Shown here piece after piece: positions 46,296-58,043 of a DNA stretch of 61,769 bases (positions are counted from its first letter, which is position 1; each line of letters starts with the position of its first letter). Made by a program: the position numbers and the translations under genes. Source of the DNA: a virus; the IMG/VR virus record IMGVR_UViG_3300006033_000029, positions 1 to 61,769 of that record. One strand, written 5' to 3'. The notes under the pieces were generated by a model. That model was not told where the DNA came from. It ran no database searches and was given only the letters and a program-made list of their open reading frames with translations.

Positions 46296-46981
46296 AGCAC
46301 CACCTCTTCGTCCATGTCACCGGCCAATGGGTGAGTCTCGTCGGCCTCGGCCATACGGATTGCATCAGTGTAGATGTCCTCTTGGAGCCCATCCATGACC
46401 GCTCTGATCAGTTTGTATTGATCGGGCGTGATGCCAGTCATCCGTTCGAGTTGATCGGGGACGAGTTGGAGACGCTCGCGGATCGAGAGCAGGTACTCGC
46501 TGAACTTCGCCAGCACCTCTGACGTGTGCCAAAGTTCCCCTTCTTCCTGCATCACGCGGTTGCGGGCGCGTCTGGCTTGCCACAACTTGAGGCGCAGATC
46601 GTCGGGGAGATCATCGTCCTTGATGCTGCGTAAGAACTCCGCAGTGTCCACCTTCGGGTCGACCAGGTATGCAGCGGCGTCGGCCACCAAATAGAGCGGG
46701 TTGCCGTGCGCCCCGACGTCGATCGGGCGGCAGTCCTTCAGGCGGCGCTTCACCTGGTGCTCAGTCATGCCGAACACGAGCGCCAACCAGCGAACCGGCA
46801 CACCCTGCTTGATCTGGTAGACGCCACGGTAGGAGAGGTCCACGTCGCCATCTTCTTCGCCCTTCGGAGGTGGCAGCAGGGAAGGGTCGATCTTGCGCGG
46901 TCGCCCAGGACCACGGCGCGGCGGTGCCGTCACGACGCCCGCCAATTCGTCAATCTCGCGGCGGCGGTCTTCAGGCATCAT
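46292..46981 (-). CDS. Terminase small subunit (229 aa)
   Basis: ATG 46981 (TGATG overlap with the methyltransferase stop); TTG 46984 and ATG 46978 are possible. The N-terminus is basic with GPGRPRKIDP; residues 55-90 form a helix-turn-helix (VYQIKQGVPVRWLALVFGMT, EHQVKRRLKDCRPI) resembling Nu1-like DNA recognition; the C-terminal half is helical (KLWQARRARNRVMQEEGELW). It recognises the packaging site and recruits the large subunit, whose gene overlaps. Confidence 0.82.
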   Translation of the reverse strand: MMPEDRRREIDELAGVVTAPPRRGPGRPRKIDPSLLPPPKGEEDGDVDLSYRGVYQIKQGVPVRWLALVFGMTEHQVKRRLKDCRPIDVGAHGNPLYLVADAAAYLVDPKVDTAEFLRSIKDDDLPDDLRLKLWQARRARNRVMQEEGELWHTSEVLAKFSEYLLSIRERLQLVPDQLERMTGITPDQYKLIRAVMDGLQEDIYTDAIRMAEADETHPLAGDMDEEVVL

Positions 46982-48528
46982 CAACAGATTTCCCAGATGT
47001 TGAAGGCCCGCCCGATGCGCCTGGCTTCAACACTAATGCTGTTCGGCTGCACACCGGCGATGCTGACGATACGGTTGTTCATCATCTCCACATAGTCGGG
47101 GTTCAGTTCGCACAGGATGCCCCTGCGCCCATGTTTCAGAGCCACGCCTGCGGTCGTGCCGCTGCCGCCGAACGGGTCCAGCACCGTGCCGCCAGATGGG
47201 CAACCGGCAAGGATGCACGGCTCTATCAGGTCGGGCGGGAAGGTCGCGAAGTGCGCACCCTCGAAGGGCTTGGTCGTGACGGTCCAGACGCTGCGGCGGT
47301 TGCGCTTTGTGAAGTCATCACCGTCACGACGCTGGCCGGACTTCCATTCCGCACGACCATCGAGCTGCTTCGCACCGGCGCTGGTGTACGGACGCCGTGG
47401 ATCGTTTGTGACGCTCGGCTCCTTAATCGCCTCGGCATCGAAGTAATACCTCGGCGACTTCGAGAGCAGGAAGATGTACTCGTGCGCCTTGGTGCAGCGG
47501 TCGCTCACGCTTTCCGGCATCGGGTTCGGCTTGTGCCAGATGATGTCCTGTCGAAGGAACCAGCCCGGCTCGAAAGCGGACGGCGGCTCGATCAACCACG
47601 ATGGTATGTCCACAGATGCACGCTGGTTGAGCGAGGAAAGCAGATCAGTCAGCACCTTCCTCTTGTCGCGAGTGGCGTCACGCTGCGGCGAGTGCCCTAG
47701 CCTTTTGGCATCAGCCATCAGTAAAAGCAGGTTGTAGGCCACCATCGCTTGGCGCTTTTTCTCGATCAGATAGGGGTAGATTTCCCGCAGGATCAGCGTC
47801 TTGTTTTCGATCCCATGAACTATCCATCGCCAAGTCGGACGCTTGCCAATATGGCCGTCGCCGGGAACATCATGCTCACTCCGGCTGGCTGGCCAGATGC
47901 GCGCGGCTTCTTCCAGCAGGGCGCGGGAACTGTTCGTTATGGTGATGTGAACGCCGGTCCTCGGGCGCCCATCATCTGCCCGAACGTGGTGAAACCCGCA
48001 GATGGTCCCTTCTCCGTCGATCATTGCCGCGAGCCAAACACGGTCACGTTCGCGAGTGATCTTGCCTGTGTAGTATGGATCGCGCAGAGCCGTTGCGACT
48101 GCCCACGGGATGCCGATCAGGTCTTTGTGCTTCAGCCCGATGGCGGGGGCGTTGCGTGTAGGGTTGTATCCGTCGTGACGGCCGCGGTTGACGTTCGCAC
48201 CATCAGCAGCCTTGCCGCTTTTCCCGCCTGCCAGCGTTTCGGCGGGCTGGTGAGTGCCGCCGCGCGCAGCCGCATGGGCGCTGTAGCTATCCCCCAGGTT
48301 CAGCCACAGCGTACCGTCATCGCGCAGCACGCGCCGCACCTCGCGGAACACCTCGACCAGCCGCGCCACGAAGGCGTCGGGCGTTGCCTCAAGCCCGATC
48401 TGGCCCTCGTGCCCGTAATCCCGCAGACCGAAGTAAGGTGGGCTGGTGACGCAGGTATGGACGCACTTATCAGGCAGATGACGCAGCGATTCGATGCAGT
48501 CGCCGATGGAAATCAGGACGCTACTCAT
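46981..48528 (-). CDS. DNA methyltransferase with in-frame LAGLIDADG insertion
   Basis: A 515-residue protein. Methyltransferase motif IV is TSPPYFGLRDYG (residues 28-39) and motif I is LDPFGGSGTTAG near the C-terminus, the beta-type order of N4-cytosine/N6-adenine enzymes. Between IPWAVATALR and WFLRQDIIWHKPNPMPES an extra segment of about 172 residues carries WLAAMIDGEGTI, a LAGLIDADG motif. No intein splicing blocks flank it, so it probably stays in the protein as an inserted domain. It may protect phage DNA and also act as a homing or nuclease element. Confidence 0.85.
   Translation of the reverse strand: MSSVLISIGDCIESLRHLPDKCVHTCVTSPPYFGLRDYGHEGQIGLEATPDAFVARLVEVFREVRRVLRDDGTLWLNLGDSYSAHAAARGGTHQPAETLAGGKSGKAADGANVNRGRHDGYNPTRNAPAIGLKHKDLIGIPWAVATALRDPYYTGKITRERDRVWLAAMIDGEGTICGFHHVRADDGRPRTGVHITITNSSRALLEEAARIWPASRSEHDVPGDGHIGKRPTWRWIVHGIENKTLILREIYPYLIEKKRQAMVAYNLLLLMADAKRLGHSPQRDATRDKRKVLTDLLSSLNQRASVDIPSWLIEPPSAFEPGWFLRQDIIWHKPNPMPESVSDRCTKAHEYIFLLSKSPRYYFDAEAIKEPSVTNDPRRPYTSAGAKQLDGRAEWKSGQRRDGDDFTKRNRRSVWTVTTKPFEGAHFATFPPDLIEPCILAGCPSGGTVLDPFGGSGTTAGVALKHGRRGILCELNPDYVEMMNNRIVSIAGVQPNSISVEARRIGRAFNIWEIC
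47569..48084 (-). mobile_element. LAGLIDADG domain inserted in methyltransferase
   Basis: Approximate borders: residues 149-320 of the methyltransferase. It begins RDPYYTGKITRERDRVWLAA, carries one LAGLIDADG helix (AAMIDGEGTIC), ITITNSSRALLEEAARIWP and a helical end (EKKRQAMVAYNLLLLMADAK). Only one motif copy is evident, so action as a dimer is expected. There is no Cys/Ser at the left end and no His-Asn at the right, so it is not an intein. Confidence 0.75.
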
Positions 48529-48842: not shown

Positions 48843-51299
48843 TCAGCGGTGATTTGCTGAAGTCTTTCGTCTGCCTAACAATTTCAGGCGAAGATCCGCC
48901 ATAATCTCGTCTTGTGTGATGGCCCGATCCTGCAATTTTGGAAGAATATCATCATCATAGGTGCCCTTGGCGATGATGTGGCGGATGGTGACCGGCCTCG
49001 TTTGCCCTGGGCGGTGCAGACGCTTGTTCATCTGCTGATAGGTTTCCAGATCATGAGTCAACCCATACCAGACGAGTATGTTCCCGCCGAACTGAATATT
49101 CTGACCATGTCCCACAGATTGTGGGTGCGCGAGCAACAGGTCGATCTTGCCGGCGTTCCAATCGGCCTTCGTTTTCCTGACGTCACCCTCTCCAAAGACC
49201 ACCGCTTTCTTGAATTTCTTCCTGATTCGATCGAGGTCGAACTTGAAGTTATAGGCCACCAGGACGGGCGCACCGTCGGCTTCATTGACGATCTCTTCGA
49301 GGGCTTCCAGCTTCTTGTCGTGGATCCAGACGTCACGTCCGTTCTCGTCATACATGCTGCCGTTGCAGTTATGCACAATCAGAGGGCCGCGCGATCCTCT
49401 GACGACATACCGGTTTCTCGGCCCACAGTCGGCGATGTCATAGACTTTCGATCTACGGGTTTGAACAATCTCTGTCCGCGAAGGCCCCTCCTGAACCTCC
49501 TGTAGAAAGTCTGATATTCCAAACCCGCCTTCTCTGCTGCTTCCGCTAGACAGATCGTACCCCACGGACTCTCGACATGCACGTTGACTCGGGTGTTCCG
49601 CAACTGCTGTTTCTCCGTCACCCATCGGTAGTTCTGCGCCGAATACGGCTCGTTGTTGTTCACCCTGTCGATGGACAAATTGTCCGCGTATCCAACTCTC
49701 ACATCTTCCCAGAACGCCTCGAAAGATTCGAACCACGCTTGAGGCATGTCGATCCCACGACCCCCATAGTTCTTGAAATCCTTGGCCAAAGGATCCCGGC
49801 AACGAGACTTCATGAGCGTCCAAATCCGGTAGGGCCTGGTGCCAGTCATACCGTGACCATTTACACCTCTGCTCACAGTTTTCCCGTGCTTGCAGCCGCA
49901 GTTCGGAGTGGCTGTGGGTCGATGTGGCAAACGAAGATTCTGACTGATCCGAACTACTTCCTTCCCGCAGTCGCAACGGCACAGCCAGGTGGCCTTCTTC
50001 GTAGAAGTTGCCGTCGACCCGTGTCTCGACAAAACCGTCAGGTAACCGAACTTCATGCCGGTCAAATCTTTCGCAGGATGCGCCATCGAGAATCTCTTCT
50101 GCCTTCTTCCAACCTTCTACAGTAAGAATAAGATGCTCTTTGGTCATATCAACGCCAAAGCAAGGAATAACTTCCTTTTCTCCTTGGTAAAGGAGACCGC
50201 CATGAGCGACAAACTGCTCCCCATCCCATATGAGGTCAGTCGCCCCAATACTTTCGATTGGCTTCCATCCGTCTCTGGTAAGAACATCAGTACCTTCGGC
50301 GATGCAGAACTGCAGCAGTTTGCCCGCCAGCACGCCCCGGTTCACAGCCTCGATGTCATAGGCTTCGGAGACCAACGTCTTCTTGAACGCTTGGTATTCT
50401 TCCATCGCCTTGCGAGGCAGCGTGACGCGAACATCGTTGATCAGCAGCGGCGGCAAATCGGGGTAGAGTTCTGGGTCGAGCGTGAACATGATGTCGCTCA
50501 TGCGCTCAGTAATCTCCCTCTGTGCATGAGGCTTTGGCGTCAGATTCCAGCCCATGTAGTCCTTGTCGAACCACCGCTCCTCGAACTTCGTGCGAGACGA
50601 CCCGAGGCGCTCCCCGAGGTCGGCGATATAGGCCAAGCCCCACATGTTCCGCAGCCCTTTGGGCGTCGGCGTGCCAGTCATCAGAACGATACGCTTGACA
50701 AACTTCCGAGCCTTCGCAGCCGCGCCGAAGATACTGATCTCCTTCGTGGCGGTGCGCTTCTTCCCGTTCTTGAAAACGCTCGCCTCGTCGACGATCATCA
50801 TGTCGTAAGGCCACTTCTTCTCGAAGTGCTTCCAAAGCCAGGGCAGACCCTCCTTGTTGATGATGTGGACCTCGGCGCCATCCGAGACCAAGCGCCGACG
50901 CTTCCACTCCTTCGCTCTCGTTCGGTGCCGACCGGCCCACTTGGACGCCTCTGCTGCCGGAAGACCTGCGATCTTGGCGATCTCATAGGCGTCCTTGTAG
51001 GCACGCACGATGTCCTCGTCGTCATCTTCGGCCCTGATGAGCGTCCAGTCGATGTGGTTCAAGTGCTTCCAATCAGCGAACTCATCCGGATAGGTGGCCG
51101 TGGCGACCAGCATGGGCGCGACGATCAGCACTTTCTTGACGATGCCATCTTCGAGCAGGTCGTCGGCAGCGGTGAGCACGGTGACGCTTTTTCCGGCCCC
51201 CATCTGCCATCCGAGGATGGTGATCTCGTTCTCATATATTTGCCGAATTCCCCACTTTTGGAATGAGCGAAGCTGACTGCGCTTGATGCCGTTGGTCAC
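48843..51299 (-). CDS. SNF2-type DNA helicase with intein (818 aa)
   Basis: Extein is about 505 residues. Motif I GWQMGAGKSVT (30-40), motif II IVDEAS (169-174), motif III LMTGTPTP (206-213), and C-terminal helicase motifs HDLETYQQMNKRLHRPGQTR. Such phage Snf2-like helicases work with replication or recombination proteins. A 313-residue intein interrupts LLQF/CNGSMYDENG. It follows the VRR-NUC gene with overlap (51296-51299) and ends the replication operon. Start ATG 51299. Confidence 0.9.
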   Translation of the reverse strand: MTNGIKRSQLRSFQKWGIRQIYENEITILGWQMGAGKSVTVLTAADDLLEDGIVKKVLIVAPMLVATATYPDEFADWKHLNHIDWTLIRAEDDDEDIVRAYKDAYEIAKIAGLPAAEASKWAGRHRTRAKEWKRRRLVSDGAEVHIINKEGLPWLWKHFEKKWPYDMMIVDEASVFKNGKKRTATKEISIFGAAAKARKFVKRIVLMTGTPTPKGLRNMWGLAYIADLGERLGSSRTKFEERWFDKDYMGWNLTPKPHAQREITERMSDIMFTLDPELYPDLPPLLINDVRVTLPRKAMEEYQAFKKTLVSEAYDIEAVNRGVLAGKLLQFCIAEGTDVLTRDGWKPIESIGATDLIWDGEQFVAHGGLLYQGEKEVIPCFGVDMTKEHLILTVEGWKKAEEILDGASCERFDRHEVRLPDGFVETRVDGNFYEEGHLAVPLRLREGSSSDQSESSFATSTHSHSELRLQARENCEQRCKWSRYDWHQALPDLDAHEVSLPGSFGQGFQELWGSWDRHASSVVRIFRGVLGRCESWIRGQFVHRQGEQQRAVFGAELPMGDGETAVAEHPSQRACRESVGYDLSSGSSREGGFGISDFLQEVQEGPSRTEIVQTRRSKVYDIADCGPRNRYVVRGSRGPLIVHNCNGSMYDENGRDVWIHDKKLEALEEIVNEADGAPVLVAYNFKFDLDRIRKKFKKAVVFGEGDVRKTKADWNAGKIDLLLAHPQSVGHGQNIQFGGNILVWYGLTHDLETYQQMNKRLHRPGQTRPVTIRHIIAKGTYDDDILPKLQDRAITQDEIMADLRLKLLGRRKTSANHR
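49368..50306 (-). mobile_element. Intein in helicase containing an out-of-frame HNH gene
   Basis: 313-residue intein: Cys1 in CIAEGTDVLTRDGWKPIESI (block A), block B MTKEHLIL, and C-terminal block RNRYVVRGSRGPLIVHN followed by Cys+1. Extein joins as LLQF-CNGS. Between residues about 110 and 280 the intein frame is low in family likeness (serine/glutamate/histidine-rich) because the DNA also encodes an HNH endonuclease in another frame. So the splicing domain is about 145 residues. Confidence 0.9.
49379..50086 (-). CDS. HNH homing endonuclease nested out of frame in intein (235 aa)
   Basis: Reads in a frame one base off the intein frame. Full HNH family layout: DLTGMKFGYLTVLSRHG, zinc-like WLCRCDCGKEVVRI and NCGCKHG, then RIWTLMKSRCRDP, NYGGRGI, SIDRVNNNEPYSAQNYRW and VTEKQQLRN. 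The C-terminal region may be a DNA-binding repeat (ICLAEAAEKAGLEYQTFYRR). Start ATG 50086 with a weak AAGAG site; MKFGYL is an alternative. It matches the frameshifted HNH gene at 585-1183. It ends 11 nt before the intein's last codon. Confidence 0.85.
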   Translation of the reverse strand: MAHPAKDLTGMKFGYLTVLSRHGSTATSTKKATWLCRCDCGKEVVRISQNLRLPHRPTATPNCGCKHGKTVSRGVNGHGMTGTRPYRIWTLMKSRCRDPLAKDFKNYGGRGIDMPQAWFESFEAFWEDVRVGYADNLSIDRVNNNEPYSAQNYRWVTEKQQLRNTRVNVHVESPWGTICLAEAAEKAGLEYQTFYRRFRRGLRGQRLFKPVDRKSMTSPTVGRETGMSSEDRAAL

Positions 51300-54539: not shown

Positions 54540-55733
54540 TCAATCCTCTTCGTTGAACTCATCTGCGATGTTGCGTAGCGCCGGTCTCGCGTCCTCCACC
54601 GGCACAAGGACGGGCTTCCGCTCGCCATTGTCGATCAGATCGGCTAATTCCTCGAACTCCTTGTCGCTGAGAACCTCGCTAGCCTTCTTGGGAGTAATCA
54701 CCTTTTTGGTGTAAACTCTCTCAAGAGGTAAGTACTCACGCAAAGCTTTTTCGGCTGCGTCATTGTCGAGCCACTTTCGAGGTGGCGAACGCCCCTCCAC
54801 GACCTTCAGACCAGGTGTCGGACGCCCCTTGATGGCATCGTCGATGATCTCGGCCTTGATGCGCTCAAGGTATTTCATGATCATGCTGCTGTGCTTGTAA
54901 AGGAACGAGCGACGCTCTGGAGTGAGCAGCCCGATCGGCGTCATGCGGAGCGGCAGATCGTGCTCCATGTGATCGTCGAGTTCATCGAAGTCGCGGACAA
55001 TCATGTCGAGATTGAACTTGTCATACTCGGGGCACTGACGGTCCTTGGCGCCCGGGCAGTAGGCATCGTCGCACCACGCACCGGCAATACGCGGAGCGTC
55101 GTCCCGTGCAACTTCCTTCGCCAGACGCTTCAGCCTCTTGCCGAATTCCAGCAGCGTGTCGAGATCGGTGTCCCATTCGCCACCGCCGCCGCGCACCCGG
55201 GGCTGGTGGATGATCAGGCGGAACTCCTCAACGTCGCTCTGCCCACGGACAAAGGTGTCCCAGAGCCCAAGGGCATAGGCCATGATCTGCGGATTCCTGA
55301 CCGGGCTGATCGGTTTGAAGCCGAACTTCCAGTCGAATACCGTGATGCGCTTCTTGCCCACAATGCCGACGTCGCATGTGCCAAACTGCTCGGGCATCCA
55401 GCGGCCGAGGTCGACGCGCTTCTCCACCAGCAGTTTGCCAGGGATGTCGTCGATGATGTCAAGGCCATCTCGAATGCCCTCTGCGTCCTCTTCGGTGAGT
55501 TCGTACTTGTAGCCGTTGTAGGTGCGCACTTCGCCCACCATGTCGAAGGGATCAAGGTTCCTGTTCAGACAGTCCTCAGCGAACGAGTGCAGGATCGTGC
55601 CTTCGTCTGCCATCGGGCCGGCGCCGTCCTCGTCATCAAGGCTGTCGATGAAGTTCACGGAACCCGGACAACTGAGCGCCCGTGCGAGAGTTGAGGGGCC
55701 GATCCGGGCATGAGCACGTTCGCGTGGTGCCAC
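54540..55733 (-). CDS. DUF2800 PD-(D/E)XK nuclease-like protein (397 aa)
   Basis: GTG 55733. Typical partner of DUF2815 in phage replication modules. Motifs: ILHSFAEDCLNR, LLVEKRVDLG, GTCDVGIVGKKRITVFDWKF with D-x-K in VFDWKFG, NPQIMAYALGLW, and CDDAYCPGAKDRQCPEYDKF with cysteines in the iron-sulfur Cas4-like order. It likely acts as a nuclease-helicase partner in recombination or end processing. Stop adjoins the ssDNA-binding gene. Confidence 0.8.
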   Translation of the reverse strand: MAPRERAHARIGPSTLARALSCPGSVNFIDSLDDEDGAGPMADEGTILHSFAEDCLNRNLDPFDMVGEVRTYNGYKYELTEEDAEGIRDGLDIIDDIPGKLLVEKRVDLGRWMPEQFGTCDVGIVGKKRITVFDWKFGFKPISPVRNPQIMAYALGLWDTFVRGQSDVEEFRLIIHQPRVRGGGGEWDTDLDTLLEFGKRLKRLAKEVARDDAPRIAGAWCDDAYCPGAKDRQCPEYDKFNLDMIVRDFDELDDHMEHDLPLRMTPIGLLTPERRSFLYKHSSMIMKYLERIKAEIIDDAIKGRPTPGLKVVEGRSPPRKWLDNDAAEKALREYLPLERVYTKKVITPKKASEVLSDKEFEELADLIDNGERKPVLVPVEDARPALRNIADEFNEED

Positions 55734-55734
55734 T

Positions 55735-56286
55735 TCAGTTCTTCTCCCAAGGGAAAACGAAGCCGTTCAGCCGTTCGCCGTGATAGCCGCGACCCCAGGT
55801 CGTGTGAACAACAGCGTCCCAGCCCTTTTCCTTCATCTTCTTCCGAATCTTGCAGATCATGACGTCGATGATTTTCGGGTTGATCAGTTCCCCGGAAGAG
55901 CGGCTTCCGTAGATGGCGTCGTAGATCACCTCTTTCGGCATGAAGCGGTCATCGAAGACCATCAGAAGAATTTGCGCCTCAGTGGCGGTGAAGCCTTGAC
56001 GACAAACCTTCATGACTCGGTCTTCTTCCAGTGCAGGAACAAGTTGCCGCACCAATTCCAGAAGGAATTCGACCGCATCGCGAGCGCCCATATCGGCGAC
56101 AGCCCTCTCGATCGAAGCGATCTTGGGAATACGCGAGCCGTGAACCTCGATGCCGAGTGCTTTGGCCCTACGCATGATCGTATTGCGACCGTAACCGAGT
56201 TCGCGGCCGATAGCGGTGGCAGAGAGGCCGTCTGCGACGCGCTGGCGCAGTTCAGCGGGGTCCATCCGAGCCGGTTGTTGTGTCAT
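55735..56286 (-). CDS. CtrA-like winged-helix regulator with GcrA-like HTH (183 aa)
   Basis: ATG 56286. Residues 6-45 (DPAELRQRVADGLSATAIGR, ELGYGRNTIMRRAKALGI) look like the GcrA/resolvase-type HTH of alphaproteobacteria. Residues 95-180 are an OmpR-family winged helix: GFTATEAQILLMVFDDRFMP, KEVIYDAIYG, IIDVMICKIRKKMKEKGWDA, VVHTTWGRGYHG, which is very near the CtrA DNA-binding domain. There is no receiver domain. It may bind host cell-cycle promoters without needing phosphorylation. This is inference from motifs. Confidence 0.75.
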   Translation of the reverse strand: MTQQPARMDPAELRQRVADGLSATAIGRELGYGRNTIMRRAKALGIEVHGSRIPKIASIERAVADMGARDAVEFLLELVRQLVPALEEDRVMKVCRQGFTATEAQILLMVFDDRFMPKEVIYDAIYGSRSSGELINPKIIDVMICKIRKKMKEKGWDAVVHTTWGRGYHGERLNGFVFPWEKN

Positions 56287-56287
56287 C

Positions 56288-56689
56288 TCAATACTTCTTG
56301 CCCCCTGCTGCACGGGTTTCCAGCTTGTGATCGGCGCGCTGCCGGTTGTAGCGGTTCTTCTCGATGATCGCGCCGGCCACGTCCAAACCCAGCGCAGCCG
56401 CCGTGTCGAAGATGCGGAGGATGCAGTCAGCGAACTCGACCTCGCGGCCGTCGCGGTGAGGCAGTTTGTCGTCCATCAACCCATTGCGATCAGCTTCCAG
56501 CGCCTCGGAGAGTTCCGAGTGCATCAGCGCCACTACTTCACCGAAGTTGCGCTTGATCGGCAGCAGCGTCGTCGGATCGGTGTACCAGCCAGCCTCGGTG
56601 GCGGTGCGGTGCGCGAGATCCTGAGCCTTCGCCAGACCGATGTAGGCGTCGGCCTCTTCGCGACTCATGTCGTCGATCGTAAGACGCAT
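56288..56689 (-). CDS. MazG-like nucleotide pyrophosphohydrolase (133 aa)
   Basis: ATG 56689 (TGATG overlap). The core FGEVVALMHSELSEALEADR and GREVEFADCILRIFDTAAAL matches the EExxE-12-28-ExxD metal-binding pattern of MazG-type all-alpha NTP pyrophosphatases. Removes (d)NTPs or alarmone and can aid nucleotide supply in infection. Located between the CtrA-like regulator and a basic protein in the replication operon. Confidence 0.8.
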   Translation of the reverse strand: MRLTIDDMSREEADAYIGLAKAQDLAHRTATEAGWYTDPTTLLPIKRNFGEVVALMHSELSEALEADRNGLMDDKLPHRDGREVEFADCILRIFDTAAALGLDVAGAIIEKNRYNRQRADHKLETRAAGGKKY

Positions 56690-56919
56690 CAGCCGACCCT
56701 CCGAAGGCCGACAGTGGGGAAACCGTTGGCCTGGTGCCACATGAACTGGCTCAGAGCCACCGGCATCTTCTTCGCCCGGCGCTGCTGGTGGCGAACGACC
56801 TGGCGAGAGAGACCGAGGTCTTCGGGGGCGTTCTTCAGCCGCTTCGCCGTGGCCTTGCGGTGTACATCGAGACGCTTCGCAGCGCGCTCAGCACCGGTCG
56901 TCACTTTCTTCTTCGTCAT
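56689..56919 (-). CDS. Basic small protein (76 aa)
   Basis: ATG 56919 (GGAGAACCG upstream). The N-terminal half is highly basic (MTKKKVTTGAERAAKRLDVH, RKATAKRLKNAPEDLG), followed by SRQVVRHQQRRAKKMPVALS. DNA binding is plausible. It has no known family. It overlaps the MazG gene. Confidence 0.5.
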   Translation of the reverse strand: MTKKKVTTGAERAAKRLDVHRKATAKRLKNAPEDLGLSRQVVRHQQRRAKKMPVALSQFMWHQANGFPTVGLRRVG

Positions 56920-57658: not shown

Positions 57659-57713
57659 ATTGAAAACACCTTCCAAGCACGTTGTCAAACGCTAAAATCA
57701 CCCATATGGTGAT
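57659..57713. promoter_or_regulatory. Divergent promoters sharing one operator
   Basis: Plus: TTGTCA (57682-57687), 17-bp spacer, TATGGT (57705-57710). Minus: perfect TTGACA (57688-57683), 18-bp spacer, TTCAAT (57664-57659). The -35 boxes overlap. The perfect dyad ATCAC CCATATG GTGAT (57697-57713) covers the plus -10 and lies upstream of the minus promoter, so a bound protein would repress plus and might repress or activate minus. This is the layout of a control switch. Confidence 0.78.
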
Positions 57714-57740: not shown

Positions 57741-58043
57741 ATGACCGACCTTCCTTCCCCGATCCCTCGCGGCAGCAGCGCGGGAGAAGAGCGCACCGAC
57801 CTCTATGTGCTCTGCTACAGGAGTCTACCCCTCCATCGAAAGGTGATCAAAAACCGGAAAGGCGAGGAGTGGCGCGGGCTCGACATCGAGCGAATCTCCA
57901 AGGAAATCGGTGTTTCCAAGCAGAAAATCAGCATGTGGATGAAGCAGAACAGCCTGCCGGGTCAGCGCGTGAAAGCCTTGATCGGACTTGAAGGCAGCAC
58001 GCTCACCTTCGAGACGCTCGGGCCGTTCATCAACGCCCGCTGA
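57741..58043 (+). CDS. HTH regulator, candidate operator-binding repressor (100 aa)
   Basis: ATG 57741 with GGGA upstream. Basic N-terminal half (LHRKVIKNRKGEEWRG) followed by the helix-turn-helix LDIERISKEIGVSKQKISMW and a C-terminal segment (LPGQRVKALIGLEGSTLTF). Small phage repressors and Cro-like proteins share this size. It is transcribed from the divergent region that holds a perfect operator, so autoregulation is likely. It is the best candidate for the protein that binds all ATCAC-N7-GTGAT sites; not proven. Confidence 0.65.
   Translation: MTDLPSPIPRGSSAGEERTDLYVLCYRSLPLHRKVIKNRKGEEWRGLDIERISKEIGVSKQKISMWMKQNSLPGQRVKALIGLEGSTLTFETLGPFINAR

Follow-up and report, generated by a model that had tools for sequence, protein, structure and literature searches.

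CtrA is a master switch of the bacterial cell cycle, and GcrA is another cell-cycle regulator. Both are connected with phages. Promoters of alphaproteobacterial phages are known targets of host CtrA; it binds sites on several of these phages, and this binding has been proposed to defer lysis (PMC9437464). A GcrA homologue encoded by phages of the phiCbK type is believed to alter the replicative state of the host (PMC3556154), and another GcrA homologue is found in an Agrobacterium phage (PMC6630229). In the Roseobacter phages RDJL Phi 1/2, one gene is annotated ctrA. Its product (gp37, ADK73438) is a receiver-less winged helix of the CtrA type encoded in an early operon, and so are RCWHITEOAK_59 and related proteins from Rhodobacter capsulatus phages, which have in addition an HTH-like region at the N-terminus. 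None of these proteins has previously been described as combining CtrA with GcrA. Among the open-access papers searched, we found none that treats receiver-less CtrA winged helices as a family of phage proteins, none that reports the fusion of such a winged helix with a GcrA-like HTH, and none on operons that combine these winged helices with GcrA.

The protein analyzed here, P0001, is encoded in IMG/VR virus record IMGVR_UViG_3300006033_000029. The whole stretch of 61,769 nucleotides, referred to as the window, includes genes for terminase, portal, capsid, tail, tape measure and endolysin, and also encodes ribonucleotide reductase, thymidylate synthase and a methyltransferase; we infer that the host is alphaproteobacterial. 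GANTC occurs 166 times, against 372 expected from dinucleotides, and is the lowest-represented gapped palindrome of the window, at 0.58 of expectation; CTAG, AGCT and GTAC are likewise low. This depletion is consistent with a host that has a GANTC methylase, and is silent on what P0001 binds. Rfam and tRNA searches of the window gave zero matches. The very start of the record (1-229) is a tandem array of a 25-bp unit in 9.2 copies.

P0001 has 183 residues and is read on the minus strand from an ATG at 56286 to a TGA at 55735. The pyrophosphatase gene upstream stops one base before the P0001 start codon, and the DUF2800 exonuclease gene downstream starts one base after the P0001 stop (Table 1). 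Further 3' are genes for a single-strand DNA-binding/annealing protein, a DNA polymerase, a VRR-NUC-like protein and a SNF2-type helicase. This replication block is syntenic with that of the Loktanella phage pCB2051-A (Casjensviridae), where the early leader gene and the exonuclease gene have no P0001 counterpart between them. Thus, the P0001 gene is an accessory addition to the early operon and not part of the core replication machinery. Close relatives of the exonuclease were sought in IMG/VR and none were found; therefore, no ortholog of P0001 could be traced in close relatives. The SNF2-type helicase (48843-51299, minus strand) has an apparent intein at about residues 343-609, which begins CIAEGTDVLTRDG and ends VHNC; the Loktanella homologue aligns on either side of it, and a 235-residue homing-endonuclease-like ORF (49379-50086) lies within it in another frame. 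An N6/N4 DNA methyltransferase (46981-48528, minus strand) has an HNH-endonuclease-like insertion at residues 160-303.

Table 1. Features of the P0001 locus, candidate operators, and related loci in other records. Positions refer to the window unless another record is named.
Feature	Position	Strand	Basis or remark
P0001 gene, HTH plus CtrA-type winged helix	55735..56286	-	ORF, Pfam, AlphaFold model
Tri-helical HTH, GcrA-DBD-like, residues 10-44	56155..56259	-	Pfam, model, 5YIV, hhalign
Helical linker, residues 54-95, including 28-residue helix 68-95	56002..56127	-	AlphaFold model
CtrA-type winged helix, residues 99-172	55771..55992	-	Trans_reg_C, tree, PDB folds
Recognition helix IIDVMICKIRKKMKE, residues 139-153	55828..55872	-	
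Wing, residues 158-172, with CtrA-type Trp164	55771..55815	-	
Pyrophosphatase-like gene, upstream operon neighbor	56288..56740	-	
DUF2800 / Cas4-type exonuclease gene, downstream operon neighbor	54540..55733	-	
ATCACYNTWANRGTGAT, exact copies, 17 bp each	3745, 19297, 37155, 44118, 57697, 60466		weaker copies also present
Perfect palindrome ATCACCCATATGGTGAT, candidate operator in divergent promoter of P0001 operon	57697..57713	.	
Small HTH protein, divergent from P0001 operon	57741..58043	+	rival reader of ATCAC-N7-GTGAT
TCAAC-N5-GTTGA, RHph_X2_30 record	502, 1533, 2555, 3007, 6221, 11986, 27128, 39243, 53540, 60641, 67261		
CtrA-type winged helix overlapping full GcrA gene	L134 5318-6564; L171 5096-6483; L195 4394-6483		

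The C-terminal region of P0001 had been predicted to be closely similar to the DNA-binding domain of CtrA, and this is borne out. Pfam Trans_reg_C matches residues 101-168 (E=4e-7; 30.3 bits, above the cut-off of 26.2). One Mesorhizobium and one Acetobacter genome were searched for OmpR-family regulators; of all those recovered, the ones that matched P0001 best were of the CtrA type, with 45% identity over 51 residues (E=3e-11) and 38% over 76 residues (E=1e-8), while the remaining regulators gave E>=1e-3. The CtrA-specific motif KIIDVxICKxRKK...TxWGRGY, which spans the recognition helix and the wing tryptophan, is present. In a tree of 105 winged-helix domains, the phage and CtrA domains split from the other OmpR-family domains with SH-aLRT support of 96%; within this group, the order of branching is for the most part unresolved, and the branch that leads to the window domain is long. 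Two residues, Cys145 of the recognition helix and Trp164 of the wing, occur in 14/14 CtrA, 47/47 phage and 0/15 other OmpR domains, and the lysine beside Cys145 in 14/14, 44/47 and 1/15, respectively, the phage counts for Cys and Trp being inflated because the large phage set was gathered with patterns that contain those residues. P0001 and the matches from Rhodobacter, Rhizobium and Roseobacter phages were picked without such patterns, and all of them carry both residues. By analogy with PhoB, these positions presumably face the DNA.

In other respects P0001 departs from CtrA. Its recognition helix has Met where CtrA has Phe, and the loop before this helix is longer and altered (YGSRSSGELINPK, against YGGMDEPELK in CtrA). 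A sequence search of the PDB with P0001 returned generic OmpR-family matches only. OmpR-type domains have an N-terminal beta-sheet platform ahead of the first helix; in the P0001 model, this platform is missing, the long helix 68-95 stands in its place, and there is no strand before residue 158. With about 40% identity, a long branch, the Met-for-Phe exchange and the longer loop, the specificity of P0001 may have drifted. The loop that precedes the recognition helix can serve OmpR-type winged helices as a contact to the sigma factor, and since that loop is altered in P0001, the protein could conceivably act through proteins, e.g., by sequestering host RNA polymerase or CtrA with its winged helix or long helix. 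We consider this very unlikely, as both DNA-reading helices are kept in the sequence and in the model.

The model was computed with AlphaFold2 from 25 related sequences and has a mean pLDDT of 88. It consists of helices 10-18, 23-30, 34-44, 54-65 and 68-95, followed by the winged helix at 101-172; the first three, which form the HTH, exceed pLDDT 90. In agreement with the prediction that the receiver is lacking, residues 1-98 match HTH models only in Pfam and are purely helical in the model, with no receiver and no phospho-acceptor aspartate. Therefore, P0001 would have no phosphorylation switch of the CtrA kind. The segment between the HTH and the winged helix is a putative dimerization element; related phage proteins have a coiled coil at this position.

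That the N-terminal HTH resembles GcrA was also part of the original prediction, and here the outcome is mixed. GcrA is its top Pfam match, ahead of two generic HTH models, but at 21.2 bits it falls below the cut-off of 26.9. Profile-profile alignment of the HTH with nine GcrA proteins gave a probability of 94% (hhalign), while a PDB search with the HTH profile returned mostly non-GcrA HTHs. Structure comparison, which had been suggested as a check, placed the full model among OmpR-type folds (Z up to 9.8) and the HTH, modeled alone, on the Caulobacter GcrA DNA-binding domain 5YIV (Z 5.3, 1.5 A over 42 residues, 31% identity); the HTHs of FapR, a mycobacteriophage repressor and Tn3 resolvase, however, tie with 5YIV in Z. 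The tri-helical fold and an RN motif at the start of helix 3 are common to P0001, GcrA and the phage GcrA homologues compared, namely phiCbK gp222, Agrobacterium phage Atu_ph08 gp5 and RHph_X2_30 QXV73548. The Pfam GcrA match stops at residue 62, beyond which lie the linker and the winged helix. The C-terminal sigma-interacting domain, which in Caulobacter GcrA comprises residues 108-173 (PMC7403470), is absent from P0001 according to both Pfam and the model. Thus, GcrA-like HTH is a fair label, and homology to GcrA, whose own HTH reads methylated GANTC, is not established.

The RDJL and Rhodobacter phage proteins are about 31-46% identical to P0001 over the matched parts; the RDJL proteins, unlike P0001, have no N-terminal HTH. 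Beyond these phages, a profile scan of IMG/VR for the CtrA-type winged helix returned 198 or more relatives; 80 were kept, and their partner domains were read from the ORFs. Receiver-less CtrA-type winged helices are a large family in alphaproteobacterial phages, and the receiver is kept in a minority of the IMG/VR relatives. The commonest partner is a coiled coil. An N-terminal HTH is found in the window, in nine further loci (L071, L019, L047, L079, L033, L081, L082, L086 and L087) and in the Rhodobacter phages; a CPCC zinc knuckle, in some cases together with a C-terminal HTH, occurs in L001-L008, RHph_X2_30 and the Mesorhizobium locus L016. A coiled coil or long helix in place of the receiver would allow dimers to form without phosphorylation. 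The domain order of P0001, HTH, linker and CtrA-type winged helix, recurs in L071 and L134, and L071 has in its linker the motif RDAVE(F/Y)LL in common with P0001. Overall identity to both is low (28% for L071), and the gene neighborhoods differ. A scan of the genome collection with the whole of P0001 gave three loci only, two of them full receiver-bearing regulators. Seven contigs classed as viral (L048, L049, L052, L065, L072, L077 and L083) encode regulators that resemble full CtrA with its receiver. Eight other loci (L022, L023, L028, L029, L032, L045, L055 and L074) contain, in addition to the CtrA-type gene, a second coiled-coil winged-helix gene whose recognition helix, ESHxSKxRRK, is not of the CtrA type, and which is a possible partner or paralogue.

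The C-terminal alanines of CtrA belong to a ClpXP signal, and their replacement by Asp stabilizes the protein (PMC4433202). P0001 ends in PWEKN and has no Ala-Ala signal for ClpXP. Among non-redundant phage CtrA-type proteins, 19/47 end in Ala-Ala (e.g., those of L023, L029, L034, L063 and L073), compared with 33/375 neighboring ORFs, a difference with p about 1e-7 if one disregards that the sequences are not independent. The excess persists both where stop and start overlap (7/14 against 15/105) and where they do not (12/33 against 23/288).

It could be argued that the specificity of P0001 has gone from both CtrA and GcrA, that it reads other phage or host sites, and that its cell-cycle resemblance reflects ancestry only. 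The long branch, the identity level, the altered loop and the lack of a terminal Ala-Ala would all fit, as would the occurrence of receiver-less CtrA-type proteins in many different phages with varied partners. Nonetheless, drift would not predict that the very residues that distinguish CtrA from other OmpR-type proteins are kept, and we regard this alternative as rather unlikely.

Independent support for a connection between CtrA and GcrA came from phages in which a CtrA-type winged-helix gene is coupled to a full GcrA gene. Within the CtrA-type set, a GcrA match is present on 15 contigs, and in 10/15 it lies within 3 kb of the winged-helix gene; a few of these ten have receiver-bearing regulators (L046, L053), and the adjacent pairs in L001, L006 and L007 all belong to one family. 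In the reverse direction, 7/80 GcrA loci, scanned with a profile built from four GcrA sequences because one from nine was too diverse, have a strong winged-helix match within 6 kb. The exact Cys motif was found in 4/7 of these by an automatic filter and in L134 by inspection, while L171 and L199 have variants. In L134, L171 and L195, the stop codon of the winged-helix gene shares the sequence ATGA with the start codon of a full GcrA gene, and the L134 protein, as that of the window, is an HTH joined to a CtrA-type winged helix. The Mesorhizobium locus L016 (5827-7453) encodes in one ORF a zinc knuckle, a CtrA-type winged helix and a C-terminal HTH, followed by a small HTH gene and then, two genes on, by a GcrA-like gene. 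RHph_X2_30 encodes a CtrA-type protein about 6 kb from one that is annotated as GcrA-like. Some clustering is to be expected, however, because both kinds of gene lie in the early regions of phages of one host class.

With regard to binding sites, the window has zero exact TTAA-N7-TTAA boxes and two sites with one mismatch, against 1.9 expected. Therefore, any action of P0001 through CtrA boxes would need to take place on host DNA. Across 764 kb of related phage loci, there are five CtrA boxes at the 7-base spacing, the top of 26 spacings; we do not take this count as evidence, because it is small and some of the boxes come from phages related to each other. Among inverted dyads, the window is instead most enriched in ATCAC-N7-GTGAT, found in six exact copies (0.1 expected), each of them intergenic, and with a strong preference for spacing 7. 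The phage-wide consensus of this palindromic candidate operator is ATCACYNTWANRGTGAT. The only perfect copy of its longer form, in the divergent promoter of the P0001 operon, lies 27 bases before a small HTH gene. An extension of this operator to a TTAA half-site was ruled out, as the flanks have no such signal.

These sites raise the question of whether P0001 regulates the phage's own promoters through ATCACYNTWANRGTGAT, as an early-to-late switch that has nothing to do with the cell cycle of the host, with a symmetric linker setting two winged helices on the inverted half-sites. The enrichment and intergenic position of the dyad and the location of its sole perfect longer copy are compatible with such a switch, as is the single copy in pCB2051-A, a related phage without P0001. 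But RcWhiteOak also has a single copy even though it encodes a CtrA-type protein, RDJL Phi 1 and RHph_X2_30 have zero, and RHph_X2_30 (L132/L133) has its own palindrome, TCAAC-N5-GTTGA, in 11 exact copies against 0.16 expected. Moreover, the small HTH protein directly beside the perfect site, whose relatives in pCB2051-A, RcWhiteOak and RHph_X2_30 occupy the corresponding position, is a likelier reader of ATCAC-N7-GTGAT than P0001. The consensus also resembles what we take to be typical operators of small HTH repressors. We thus deem control of the phage's own promoters by P0001 unlikely.

Our preferred reading, tentative and held with somewhat less than even confidence, is that P0001 is a phosphorylation-independent transcription regulator derived from the DNA-binding half of an alphaproteobacterial CtrA, which acts on CtrA-controlled sites of the host. 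P0001 would be made early in infection and would dimerize through its helical linker; its winged helix would bind CtrA-type, TTAA-like half-sites without awaiting the CckA-ChpT phosphorelay, and its HTH would provide a second contact with DNA. Since CtrA boxes are missing from the phage itself, P0001 would target CtrA-controlled promoters and possibly the origin of the host. There, P0001 would most likely compete with host CtrA or fix the state of part of the CtrA regulon, so that the cell would be kept permissive for DNA replication. A role as repressor or competitor, rather than activator, is suggested solely by the altered loop before the recognition helix. The recurrent pairing of CtrA-type and GcrA genes in other phages would support this reading; against it, P0001 might instead read the phage's enriched operator, which is unrelated to TTAA. 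Judged from sequence and comparison, then, the observation that prompted this analysis is upheld, and the accompanying interpretation is a reasonable hypothesis that has gained new comparative support and is, as a whole, partly supported; that P0001 would act on the host cell cycle, forcing or blocking it, is its conjectural part.

Taken together, the pairings allow a broader, more doubtful proposition: that alphaproteobacterial phages have repeatedly built a host-derived module, consisting of a receiver-less CtrA DNA-binding domain and a GcrA-type reader, which hijacks the cell cycle by overriding the swarmer/stalked or G1/S decision. It is equally speculative that the module would be fused in the window and contained in one operon in L134, L171, L195 and L001, and we would likewise give little weight, for now, to the idea that in many phages it would still be timed by host ClpXP through a CtrA-like Ala-Ala tail. 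A widespread phage family that keeps the DNA-reading surface of CtrA, dispenses with its phosphorylation input and recurs next to GcrA genes would supply the trans-acting half so far missing from phage control of the alphaproteobacterial cell cycle, and receiver-less CtrA-type proteins would offer small natural tools with which to drive CtrA sites without the phosphorelay.
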